64,000 nucleotides of DNA from Paenibacillus sacheonensis (GTDB lineage Bacteria; Bacillota; Bacilli; Paenibacillales; Paenibacillaceae). The DNA lies in NCBI RefSeq assembly GCF_009909195.1, contig NZ_JAAAMU010000001.1, positions 186,001 to 250,000 on the forward strand, written 5' to 3'. Position numbers and translations under genes: made by a program. Below, piece by piece: positions 9,666 through 49,949 of the stretch. Every line of letters begins with the position of its first letter. Position 1 is the first letter of the stretch. The notes beneath the pieces are model-generated. The model was not told the origin of the DNA and searched no databases. It was given only the letters and a program-made list of their open reading frames with translations.

Positions 9666-10020
9666 GGTAGGGGCGGGTTTCAAAGTCAATTCGTCCTGAA
9701 GCATAGGCTGTTCTCTCGTTACGACGAGGGGACAGCCTTATTTTATTTTCGAGGAGGAACCGGTGATTCTATTGCAAAGGGAGGGATCGCATGTTGAACG
9801 CATGCGCGATTTCGAGGATCCAGGCGCAGTTTCTCTAAGCGTGGGACTGCGCGTGTTGCTGCTTCAGCCCCTCGATCGGGATCGATACGCGCGGAGATTT
9901 TCCTCGGATGGCCGGTATGGGTTATACTGGAACAGGCAAGACCCTTTCCGGGCTCTGACGGGCCATTGCGCGAGCCCGCACCGCGCCGTATATCCGCTTA
10001 TCTGAGGTGAAGCAAGCATC
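9666..10020 (+). other. Intergenic stretch with terminator and likely cls promoter
   Basis: It begins with the terminator at 9705-9750. Further on, TATACT at 9923-9928 could be a -10 for the cardiolipin synthase gene, but no good -35 is seen. A frame of 80 codons at 9763-10005 follows a GAGGAGG-like site but has no recognisable protein features. Confidence 0.4.
9705..9750 (+). terminator. Intrinsic terminator after the FadR-type regulator
   Basis: AGGCTGT at 9705-9711 pairs with ACAGCCT at 9732-9738, with further pairing inside (CTCG/CGAG), followed by TATTTTATTTT. Confidence 0.85.
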
Positions 10021-30338: not shown

Positions 30339-30399
30339 CAAGTCGATCCATGTCTACTAAAGTGGATGTATCGATTCATCCATGATCAAGCGATGAAGG

Positions 30400-30635
30400 G
30401 ATTCAGTAGCGTTCAGCTCATGCTTCCAGAGAACCGGCGGTTGGTGCAAGCCGGTACTTGATTGAACGCGAATTACCTCCCCGAGCTTCTTGTCCCGAAC
30501 CCGCGCGCCGCGCGGAAGGGAGAGACGGCCGTCCGCCGTTACCGGGCAGAGTGGAATGCGCGCTTGCGTATTCAATTAGGGTGGTACCGCGATGACTCGT
30601 CCCTGTCTATGACAGGGGCGGGTCTTTTTGAGTTC
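30400..30635 (+). promoter_or_regulatory. T-box riboswitch (tyrosine) of tyrS
   Basis: Stem I is closed by GCGTTCA (30409-30415) with TGAACGC (30463-30469). In its specifier loop the codon TAC (30455-30457) reads tyrosine. The conserved T-box AGGGTGGTACCGCG lies at 30578-30591 and is followed by the terminator. Uncharged tRNA-Tyr would pair with both and let transcription run into tyrS. Confidence 0.93.
30594..30629 (+). terminator. T-box-controlled terminator upstream of tyrS
   Basis: GACTCGTCCCTGTC (30594-30607) pairs with GACAGGGGCGGGTC (30611-30624), then TTTTT. The T-box TGGTACC just upstream would make the competing antiterminator. Confidence 0.92.
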
Positions 30636-47177: not shown

Positions 47178-47235
47178 ACAGGCGTAATCGTGAGATTCAT
47201 GTTTGAATTTATTCCCAAAAAGGAGCTTGAACAAC

Positions 47236-48249
47236 ATGACGCATCGAATTATTGTCGCCGGCTGCGGCGGCATGGCGAATACGTGGGTAGACTACGCCCT
47301 GCAGCGGGAGAACGCGGAAATCGTCGGCTTGGTCGATATTTTCGAAGACAGCGCGAAAGCGATGGCAGAGCGAAAAGGGCTGAACGTGCCGACGTTTACG
47401 GATCTGAGCACGGCGCTCGCGGCGACGGGAGCCAATCTCGTGTTCGACGTCACGATCCCGGCCAGCCATAAGCTTATCGCGACGACGGCGATGAAAGCGG
47501 GCTGCAACGTATTCGGCGAGAAACCGATGGCGGAATCGTTCGCGGATGCGCAGGAAATCGTCGAAGTCAGCCAAGCGACGGGCAAACGTTATTCGGTCAT
47601 GCAGAACCGGCGGTACCTGAAGCAAATTCGCGCCTTCCGAAGCATCGTCGAATCCGAAGCGATCGGAACGGTCGGATCGATTCACGCCGACTTCTTCCTC
47701 GGGGCGCATTTCGGCGGTTTCCGCGACGCGATGGACAACCCGCTGATCATCGACATGGCGATCCATACGTTCGATCAGGCGCGGTTTATCACGGGAGCGG
47801 ATCCCGTGTCCGTCTATTGCCACGAATACAACCCGCCGGGATCATGGTATGCGGGTAATGCGTCGGCCATCTGCATCTTCGAGATGAGCGACGGCTCCGT
47901 CTTCTCGTACAACGGTTCGTGGTGCGCGGACGGCTTGAACACGTCGTGGGAGTCGGAGTGGCGCTTGACCGGCAGCAGCGGCGGAGCCAAATGGGACGGC
48001 CACGCCATGCCGTACGGCGAGAAGCTGAATCCGGAGAAGGCGGAAGGCTTCACGCGCGAGATGCTGCCGGTCGAAGGCGACCAGGGCTGGGAAGGCCGCG
48101 AAGGTCACTGGGGCTGTCTCGACGAGATGTTCGCGGCGCTCGAAGAAGGCCGCCCGGCCGAGACCGACTGCCTGGACAACATCAAGAGCGTAGCCATGGT
48201 ATTCGGGGCCGTCGAGAGCGCGCGTACGGGACAGAAGGTCATGCTGTAG
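47236..48249 (+). CDS. Gfo/Idh/MocA-family oxidoreductase
   Basis: The 337-residue NAD(P)-dependent dehydrogenase has the Rossmann motif IIVAGCGGMANTW, the EKP motif in CNVFGEKPMAESFADA and DMAIHTFDQARFITG in the C-terminal domain. I start it at the ATG at 47236 behind AAAAGGAG (47217-47224); a more upstream ATG at 47203 lacks a site. It forms an operon with the TIM-barrel isomerase gene and is followed by a strong terminator. Confidence 0.9.
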   Translation: MTHRIIVAGCGGMANTWVDYALQRENAEIVGLVDIFEDSAKAMAERKGLNVPTFTDLSTALAATGANLVFDVTIPASHKLIATTAMKAGCNVFGEKPMAESFADAQEIVEVSQATGKRYSVMQNRRYLKQIRAFRSIVESEAIGTVGSIHADFFLGAHFGGFRDAMDNPLIIDMAIHTFDQARFITGADPVSVYCHEYNPPGSWYAGNASAICIFEMSDGSVFSYNGSWCADGLNTSWESEWRLTGSSGGAKWDGHAMPYGEKLNPEKAEGFTREMLPVEGDQGWEGREGHWGCLDEMFAALEEGRPAETDCLDNIKSVAMVFGAVESARTGQKVML

Positions 48250-48378
48250 GCGGGAGATTTAGGGGCGAGTTAGGCGACGCGAAAGGATGCCTTGCATCAA
48301 GCGGCAACCGTGGGATAAGTGCCATCGGGATCGAGAAGTGCACTGCTATGGAAAAGCAGCTGTCTGAACGTTTAAATG

Positions 48379-48416
48379 AAAAGAGGAGCATCCCGATGAG
48401 GGATGCTCCTCTTTTT
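48379..48416 (+). terminator. Intrinsic terminator after the isomerase/oxidoreductase pair
   Basis: AAAAGAGGAGCATCCC pairs exactly with GGGATGCTCCTCTTTT around GATGA, then T. Confidence 0.95.
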
Positions 48417-48559
48417 GGTTTGAGTTCGCAGCTGAAAGGAAAAAATTGATCGCTGATCGCGGCATGCGCAGGCATCATTGTATTTTTTAAATTGATGCTG
48501 CTAGTTATGGTAGTTTGAACCGTGAGTAAGAGCAGAACATTATCACGTTAGTTATGATT

Positions 48560-48739
48560 TTGCATAAAGTACAAGAATTTAGTGGGTTTTTAGATCAAAA
48601 CATTGGAAAGTTGCAAAATCTGCAAGAATTTTAGCAGAATTGCGAGTTTGAGCATGTTTTTGGGTTAGAAAGTTGTATGTTCTACACAATTCCTTATAAT
48701 AACGAGGAAAACTAGGCTTGAATGTTGTACAAAATACAA
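48560..48739 (+). repeat. Array of four TTGYA-N5-TRCAA palindromes
   Basis: TTGCATAAAGTACAA (48560-48574), TTGCAAAATCTGCAA (48611-48625), TTGTATGTTCTACA (48673-48686) and TTGTACAAAATACAA (48725-48739) share the 5-5-5 inverted-repeat form. Their starts are 51, 62 and 52 bp apart. The flanks also share GAAAGTTG or GAATGTTG before units 2-4. It could be operators, or units of a decayed repeat. Confidence 0.65.
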
Positions 48740-48912
48740 CTTTCATACGAAGATGGGGCAGGTAATGCACTGAGCAGCCGCATCCGATTGCAACAAACAA
48801 CCGCGGTCTCCACCAAACGTAGTGAAATCCACCCGGCCCAGCTCAACCCAAACAACTTAACGAAACCATTGATTCTCCGCACATCAGCTTTAAATAATCA
48901 TCCAATGCCATG

Positions 48913-49593
48913 TTAGAGCAAAAATTCGAGCGCCTTCTCCGTAGCAGTATAACCGACAACATAGCTGCCACGTCGGACGGGTTCGAGTAAATGCAGCGAA
49001 GACAGACGTTCCAACGGTTTGCGTATAGTTCGATAGTTGAGATCGAAATGCCGTGCGATTTCGGTTGTGCGAATCGAAGCTCCAAACCTCCAGGCATAAC
49101 GAAGCACTTCTTTTTCCATCGGAGTCAATGTTGTTGTATCAGCGTCCAAGGCCCGCAGCATATGCGGTCCAATCACCAGCTGCAGCAGCATGCGGCACAT
49201 TTCTGGTCGGTTCTGCACATCGTCGAACGAGAAGTGAATCATCTTCCATCCCATGCCGGTCAAATAGGTATCCCTGTTTAGCGCGTAGCTGAAGCGTTCG
49301 CGGTCCATATCTTTCACGTGGCTCTGATATCCGTCGCACTCGATGCCGAATCGTCCGTTCGGAGGCAGGAAAGCGAAGTCCAAAAACTGCGATTTGCGAT
49401 TCCAGTCTGCGACCTCGTACTCCGGATGCAGATGCTCAAAGCTGCCGAACAGCGGCCACCACACCTGCTCGAGCAGCAATTTCTCGGCATGGCGATGACC
49501 GCGGACAAGCCGTCCTCGCCGTTCTCCGGTTCGTTCATCGACGTGATTTGAAATGAATCGTTCGTGGGCAGCTTCGAATGCTGAAAGTTTCAA
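48913..49593 (-). CDS. PD-(D/E)xK nuclease-like protein with C-terminal winged helix
   Basis: The 226-residue protein begins at a TTG preceded by AAGGAGGG. Its N-terminal half resembles the DUF559/Vsr-like REase fold: an Asp in KSQFLDFAFLPPNGRFG, then IECDGYQSH (E-x-D-G-x3-H). A predicted winged helix follows (TPMEKEVLRYAWRFGASIRTTEIARHFDLNYRTIRKPLERLSSLHLLEPVRRGSYVVGYT). Proteins of this build seem to be frequent in Paenibacillus genomes, but I know no established function. DNA binding with or without cleavage is possible. No methylase or toxin/antitoxin partner is beside it, and the leader carries a terminator-like hairpin. Confidence 0.65.
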   Translation of the reverse strand: MKLSAFEAAHERFISNHVDERTGERRGRLVRGHRHAEKLLLEQVWWPLFGSFEHLHPEYEVADWNRKSQFLDFAFLPPNGRFGIECDGYQSHVKDMDRERFSYALNRDTYLTGMGWKMIHFSFDDVQNRPEMCRMLLQLVIGPHMLRALDADTTTLTPMEKEVLRYAWRFGASIRTTEIARHFDLNYRTIRKPLERLSSLHLLEPVRRGSYVVGYTATEKALEFLL

Positions 49594-49609
49594 TTATATC
49601 CCTCCTTGA

Positions 49610-49657
49610 AAATAAAAAAACGTCCTTCTGGCCGGAATCCGGCTAGAAAGGACGTTC
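49610..49657 (-). terminator. Terminator-like hairpin in the leader of the nuclease-like gene
   Basis: On the minus strand AACGTCCTT pairs with AAGGACGTT, with inner stem CTAGCCGG/CCGGCCAG, followed by TTTTTTTATTTT. It ends about 17 bp upstream of the start codon, just before the ribosome site. On the same strand TATACT (49672-49677) lies a little upstream as a possible -10. It could be an attenuator or end an upstream transcript. Confidence 0.75.
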
Positions 49658-49949
49658 TTCGTCTGAACTCAGTATAGCATGCACTACTATCAATTTCAGC
49701 TGAATAAAGCAAATCATTCGAAATTGTTGAATATGACGAAAATTGTTTCAGAATAGGTGGGTCAAGGGGTATTGCAGTTGCGCTGCAGGAACAAGGGCAA
49801 TGGCCGGTCTCCGTCTAGGTGTGCTTCAGGGAAACGTAGACTTTGTGCGTCGTCATAGGCGCAGGCAAGTATTTCATTCGCCGCGGAACGTCCACCGTGG
49901 ACTGAGAGAATTCAGTTCATACGCCAGTGCGTACGCAGCTCAGCTGCTC

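Follow-up and report, generated by a model that had tools for sequence, protein, structure and literature searches.

A gene for a predicted Vsr-like nuclease with a winged helix, located in a 64,000-nt stretch of the Paenibacillus sacheonensis genome (hereafter the window), is preceded by a leader in which a 4-bp mini-hairpin with an AAGNA-type loop adjoins a terminator-like stem-loop. The element recurs before relatives of this gene, its stem covaries, it overlaps the terminator in most leaders, and it also stands before genes of DNA uptake. The shared leader points to an on/off switch, not previously described, of genes that handle incoming DNA; the explanation that we favour, and consider probable, is a factor-read attenuator that would tie the nuclease to DNA uptake. 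A search of openly licensed papers returned no description of the element. With its small size and strong conservation, and standing mainly in front of a few classes of DNA-handling genes, it offers a handle on possible control of DNA uptake in Paenibacillus-type bacteria and on the role of a widespread nuclease family.

Table 1. Features of the nuclease gene, its leader and a leader relic in the window.
Feature	Position	Strand	Basis or remark
Gene-less relic of the nuclease leader (CCTG-AAGCA-TAGG type)	9693..9744	+	Intact gene at this place in G007 (L031)
ORF, 226 aa, TTG start at 49593	48913..49593	-	Predicted Vsr/EDxHD-like nuclease domain and MarR-like winged helix
Shine-Dalgarno AAGGAGGG	49600..49607	-	Read from sequence
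T-run of leader terminator	49614..49620	-	Sequence and folding
Putative terminator stem-loop; 5' arm takes in loop and 3' arm of the mini-hairpin	49616..49659	-	Folding, -25.6 kcal/mol
Mini-hairpin GACG-AAGAA-CGTC (loop 49659-49655), candidate antiterminator or factor-binding site	49651..49663	-	Conserved in relatives
Candidate promoter CTGAAA - 17 nt - TATACT, extended TG	49671..49699	-	Promoter scan and conservation

The window protein is predicted to combine a Vsr/EDxHD-type nuclease fold with a MarR-like winged helix. Profile search matched it to the Pfam families MTES_1575 (E 1.2e-5) and DUF559 (E 0.003), both under the curated cut-offs, and at E ≤0.01 these profiles matched 15 and 17 of 26 family members, respectively. 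The sub-threshold matches of the REase-like segment are backed by fold comparison of an AF2 model (mean pLDDT 90) with VIA-align, in which the best 1000 Foldseek entries were aligned anew. Residues ~34-146 aligned with the catalytic domain of I-Bth0305I (3r3p_A; Z 11.2, rmsd 2.4, 97/97 aligned) and residues ~151-226 with MarR-type winged helices (Z about 11). Winged helices made up most of Foldseek's own best 50; TnsA, Bax1 and R2 nucleases ranked lower. The earlier note had proposed an N-terminal REase-like segment joined to a C-terminal winged helix and had named a missing REase fold as the finding that would speak against it; the profiles are weak, and the modelled structure agrees with its reading. 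The resemblance to the catalytic domain of I-Bth0305I/Vsr (EDxHD), MTES_1575 and DUF559 extends over its whole length, but the family, a putative nuclease, differs from I-Bth0305I/Vsr in its added C-terminal winged helix and in a variable position 87 (D, n = 17; K, n = 5; Q, n = 3; M, n = 1), and no intron, intein or mismatch-repair setting was seen for the family. In the predicted nuclease domain, the alignment columns of D72, E85 and H92 are invariant in 26/26 relatives. A sequence search of the PDB with the single window protein gave no match at E ≤1, and the best PDB matches of the family profile were winged helices. In PADLOC, the best match of the window protein was CARF3--CARF_TM (0.0069), which covered the winged helix only, while PDC-S37 (0.024) touched the nuclease part; family members gave weak CARF, Csa3 and SoFic matches (best 2.3e-5). 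No methylase or toxin-antitoxin partner was recognized by eye among the neighbouring ORFs, and the gene thus stands alone, as had been observed before.

For the leader (49720-49585), the folding energy is -42.6 kcal/mol, compared to -27.8 ± 3.7 kcal/mol for shuffled sequences (z -4.0, 0/200 as good), and the T-run ends the hairpin ~20 nt upstream of the TTG start codon; the terminator-like hairpin described in the earlier note is thus confirmed as a predicted fold. The most conserved part of the leader, the mini-hairpin, had been overlooked there. A simple terminator scan of the window did not list the leader hairpin, probably because its stem continues into the T-run. Rfam at the gathering threshold, applied to the whole window, matched a T-box elsewhere and left the leader unmatched, and at E ≤5 the leader gave matches far below gathering scores only. 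This T-box leader lies at 30384-30607 (+) and scores 130 bits (gathering score 93); a strong terminator hairpin is found at 48377-48417 (+), downstream of an oxidoreductase-like gene (47203-48249). Upstream of the mini-hairpin, the promoter-like sequence ends at 49671, so that the transcript would be expected to start near 49664, at the edge of the hairpin. The promoter scan gave two promoter-like sites against a shuffled mean of 2.2, i.e. the shuffled rate, and the weight of the candidate therefore rests on its conservation in relatives. A TATAAT next to the start codon (49599-49594) is a match separate from the TATACT -10 element. The possibility that the hairpin is the end of a separate transcript had been raised earlier; in unrelated contexts, it likewise has a promoter-like sequence on one side and the gene on the other, and it probably belongs to the gene downstream.

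Paralogues were checked for the same leader hairpin, as the earlier note had proposed, and nearly all carry it. In 32/32 genus homologues the mini-hairpin lies directly before the terminator, with at least three further pairs, and the core around its loop is GAAGNAC in 31 and AAAGAAT in one. Among 95 distinct upstream regions of the nuclease family picked by protein search, 92 contain AAGNA closed by four pairs and followed by a T-run; this is the fair figure, since the larger count of 142/146 includes loci chosen by an RNA model. The next-best of 256 loop patterns reached 6/95, and Markov shuffles had a mean of 0.92 and a maximum of 4. In the remaining three regions the element lies ~322, 732 and 1383 nt upstream, displaced by repeat arrays. 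Arrays of short repeats of the TTGTTGTACAAAGTGCAGGAATT type put up to ~1.4 kb between leader and gene at L043, L054 and L059, and a few short repeats resembling this type occur at ~48560-48760 in the window. The stem triplets vary (GAC, TGT, CCT, CGC, GGC, CGT, CAT), and the closing pair is G-C, or A-U in 4/142 of a set that includes loci picked by the RNA model. All cells of the stem alignment (176/176) are paired, and the covariation score is 0.867, compared to 0.266 ± 0.033 for shuffled and at most 0.248 for slid alignments; pairing was a search criterion, so these figures are partly built in and the loop test is the cleaner evidence. The 30 named loci belong to Paenibacillus, one Gorillibacterium and one Paenibacillaceae bacterium, and the leader is present in all 29 that are testable; the sequence of L258 begins 68 nt upstream of the gene, L249 has the leader, and the T-run behind the mini-hairpin of L262 is broken.

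In 79/92 leaders the 3' arm of the mini-hairpin pairs again within the terminator. A count of exact repeats of the tail triplet gave 26/80 (shuffled mean 11.6, maximum 17), weaker than that of pairing because it misses G-U pairs and shifted folds. The window leader reaches -25.6 kcal/mol as terminator and -18.6 kcal/mol with the mini-hairpin forced; the terminator form is more stable by 7 kcal/mol, and the default is thus expected to be 'off', with 'on' expected when the mini-hairpin is held. The mechanism that we propose would run as follows: the transcript begins at or near the mini-hairpin; unaided, the terminator arm would invade the 3' arm of the mini-hairpin and RNA polymerase would halt ~50 nt downstream; a factor that holds the mini-hairpin would keep the terminator from closing at its base, beside the U-run, and permit read-through into the gene. 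The earlier note had taken a leader terminator as a hint of an antitermination signal, and the conserved mini-hairpin and its overlap with the terminator point, at the level of sequence, in the same direction. In the TGT/CGT leaders (0/11 with renewed pairing) the mini-hairpin merely abuts the terminator and its 3' arm lies outside the terminator stem; simple strand exchange is therefore not general, a true weakness of the model.

The leader would work like known attenuators but fits none of those tested. The RAT of LicT/SacY measures ~30 nt and ANTAR targets consist of two hexaloop hairpins; in both, a small hairpin likewise competes with a leader terminator, whereas here a single 13-nt hairpin has the 5-nt loop AAGNA and no Rfam match. 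Type III toxin-antitoxin systems place a repeated antitoxin RNA before a terminator and an RNase toxin, and were rejected as the leader has one non-repeated hairpin and the protein is of predicted Vsr/EDxHD fold. Upstream-ORF attenuation was dismissed because no start codon occurs in the window leader from the probable beginning of the transcript up to the TTG, and a pyrG-like start-site mechanism because the distance from -10 to hairpin varies. LoaP antitermination on dfn/mln leaders likewise involves a small leader hairpin, a terminator and a dedicated factor, but the hairpin there is of the UNCG type according to PMC12691694, and with AAGNA in 92/95 regions we discarded LoaP as well. Should there be a factor that recognizes AAGNA hairpins, it would represent antitermination of a new and very compact kind.

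In the genomes given below, this mini-hairpin with its terminator also precedes comFA, comEC and Tad/Flp-type pilus operons, whose proteins are unrelated to the nuclease family. Annotation names these comFA loci as helicase only; they were identified by DEAD/helicase domains and, by eye, by cysteines resembling a zinc finger, a neighbouring comFC-like gene and DegU upstream. Among 30 comFA loci from the bacterial family, 24 carry the element and five are covered by another locus in the same genome, giving 29/30 genomes with L160 as the one uncounted locus. In comFA leaders the AAGCA stretch, and with it the entire loop, also lies in the terminator, within its stem, so its conservation is partly of other cause and convergence is possible; the stem change ATG/CAT for GTG/CAC keeps the pairing. 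A covariance model made from nuclease leaders only (R1) scores comFA weakly (23.9-24.5 bits in three genomes, 15.3 in the window genome), comEC at 23.3 bits and the pilus operon at 23.0 bits. The comEC leader of G013 (L488) reads GAGG-AAGAA-CCTC (Pfam Competence, E 2.3e-59), and TGCG-AAGAA-CGCA stands before a Tad/Flp-type pilus operon in G005 (L485; SAF 2.5e-6, T2SSE 1.5e-21), whose genes we take to be cpaB, cpaF and tadB. Paenibacillus cellulosilyticus (L489 and L490 for the comEC and pilus leaders) has AGAGG-AAGAA-CCTCT before an annotated ComEC/Rec2 gene downstream of ComEA and dCMP deaminase genes, pairing of the GATGCG-AAGAA-CGCATG type before a cpaB-like gene and GACG-AAGAA-CGTC before a nuclease family copy, and a T-run comes after each of them. 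Its ComEC and CpaB share 56-58% identity with their counterparts in G013 and G005, which makes it a different species; the comEC and the pilus leader are thus each known from two genomes, one apiece plus P. cellulosilyticus. For the window genome, R1 and a second model (R2) listed no comEC or pilus leader.

These occurrences bear on whether the nuclease/winged-helix protein controls its own amount by binding the RNA of its leader, which we regard as unlikely. Such autoregulation would fit the close tracking of family and element and the kinship of the Vsr-like fold with RNA-binding RAP domains (FASTKD4, PMC11879112), to which the window protein and family members show weak profile matches. However, comFA keeps its leader in 7/7 examined genomes with no (G026, G027, G055, G057, G068) or a weak family match (G025, G067), and the pilus leader of G005 occurs in a genome with no family match. 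Regulation of the own gene only was rejected on the same persistence of comFA leaders, and the factor that would read the leader is probably not the nuclease itself. Nor is the idea of a self-contained one-gene DNA sensor, put forward in the earlier note, supported: with comFA, comEC and the pilus operon sharing the leader, its signal is not private to the nuclease gene.

Under the favoured attenuator, expression of the nuclease would be tied to DNA uptake through the leader that it has in common with comFA, comEC and the Tad-type pilus operon. A wider reading, to which we give barely better than an even chance, takes the AAGNA mini-hairpin as a new antitermination class with a general factor and the genes behind it as an order-wide DNA-uptake regulon switched on together, which would comprise comFA, comEC, the Tad-type pilus and fast-turning, multi-copy Vsr-like/winged-helix nucleases, in one genus also Rpn-like nucleases. 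If so, the nucleases would act on, or alongside, incoming DNA. No demonstration of competence in these bacteria was found in the openly licensed literature searched. PMC8370563 reports no comFA orthologue for P. polymyxa, the occurrence of tad genes and, for Micrococcus luteus, a Flp pilus proposed as competence pilus. The Rpn-like leaders (L420, L445, L453, L465; G227 and G259, one genus) have the loop AAGCA and stand before four ORFs with weak Rpn matches (Pfam 0.0032 and 0.0066, below cut-offs); Rpn (YhgA-like) nucleases are a different nuclease family. In Escherichia coli, Rpn nucleases promote RecA-independent recombination, and the abstract mentions no such leader (PMC5350276); Rpn proteins have also been reported as anti-phage toxins (PMC10327210).

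Genome-wide, R1 found 72 sites at E ≤0.01 in 22 genus genomes, 54 of them no more than 250 nt ahead of a family match (47/52 among sites of at least 30 bits). The 18 orphans were all inspected and comprise six gene-less relics (position 9693 in the window, L131, L132, L133, L135, L141), three comFA, one comEC and one Tad-type pilus operon, three look-alike terminators with GAAGAAC before a GntR-like gene in three genomes (L068, L134, L137; possibly an old relic), two sites inside ORFs (L136, L487), one at an ORF end (L138) and one before a methyltransferase-like ORF (L486). Conversely, 14/68 protein matches had no R1 site at E ≤0.01: L016, L142, L143 and L145 do carry the element, the intact match L144 has the loop AGGCA instead of AAGNA, the weak partial match L146 is without the element, and most of the other eight are fragments of broken genes. 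The combined model R2, which had leaders of both the family and comFA as its training set, favours these. At E ≤0.2 it gave eight sites in the window genome, namely the four family genes, comFA, the window relic, L181, which was rejected as a false site, and C23:122691, which resembled a pseudogene copy but shows a remnant only at E 0.008 in profile search. At E ≤0.001, R2 sites were present in 105/119 order genomes. When 67 further sites were fetched in score order, leaving out those fetched previously, the downstream ORF within the fetched stretch belonged to the nuclease family in 57 cases, was Rpn-like in four and comFA in two, and four had none. Beyond the order, the class sample yielded matches in three genomes (G486, G381, G529). 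G381 has one leader; the G529 match looks like an ordinary terminator. G486 has four look-alike leaders on a single 82-kb contig (C19; loops AAGCA, n = 3, and GAGCA, n = 1; L415, L232), before a CHAP-type protein and others of unassigned family. By eye, no such leader was seen at an Aneurinibacillus CHAP gene related to one of the G486 genes or at a distant SAF-domain gene on a Paenibacillus rhizovicinus plasmid.

The position of the element relative to the promoter would also allow the 13-mer to be a DNA operator at the transcription start that binds a repressor, with the terminator as a separate safeguard. A -10-like hexamer occurs ≤45 nt upstream of the mini-hairpin in 77/106 leaders, compared to 17/106 for a control window, most often at 7-8 nt, and the 13-mer contains a short inverted repeat, both as an operator might have. 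We nevertheless consider an operator improbable, a little more so than autoregulation: the AAGNA centre is asymmetric, the arms vary yet remain complementary, and the distance to the -10-like box ranges from 4 to 39 nt while abutment on the terminator is constant. Least probable of all, with hardly any weight in our view, is a strong terminator that only insulates or silences and bears an incidental small hairpin; leaders outlive their genes as relics, which may serve as ordinary terminators, and look-alike terminators exist before a GntR-like gene, but termination alone would call for no constant loop and no compensatory changes in the stem, and the loop stays unpaired in the terminator fold of the CCT and TGT groups.

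The nuclease family itself is widespread and multi-copy. Matches were found in 21/22 genus genomes (one of them weak and partial), in 169/197 family-level genomes and in 160/198 sampled order genomes; the window genome has four copies, and up to at least 15 per genome occur, counted among the best 15 scored candidates. Within the genus, copies are often broken or fragmentary, and gene contexts are common to close relatives only, e.g. to the window copy and that of Paenibacillus lycopersici. A phage or plasmid origin was rejected, with no match in the phages searched, one Paenibacillus record among the plasmids and no relative found in viral contigs; the 14-mer GACGAAGAACGTCC has at least 120 exact matches in viral contigs, from which nothing was concluded. 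The place of the window relic is also gene-less in G004; in the window, the relic lies between a GntR-like regulator gene and another gene that, we assume, resembles cardiolipin synthase.
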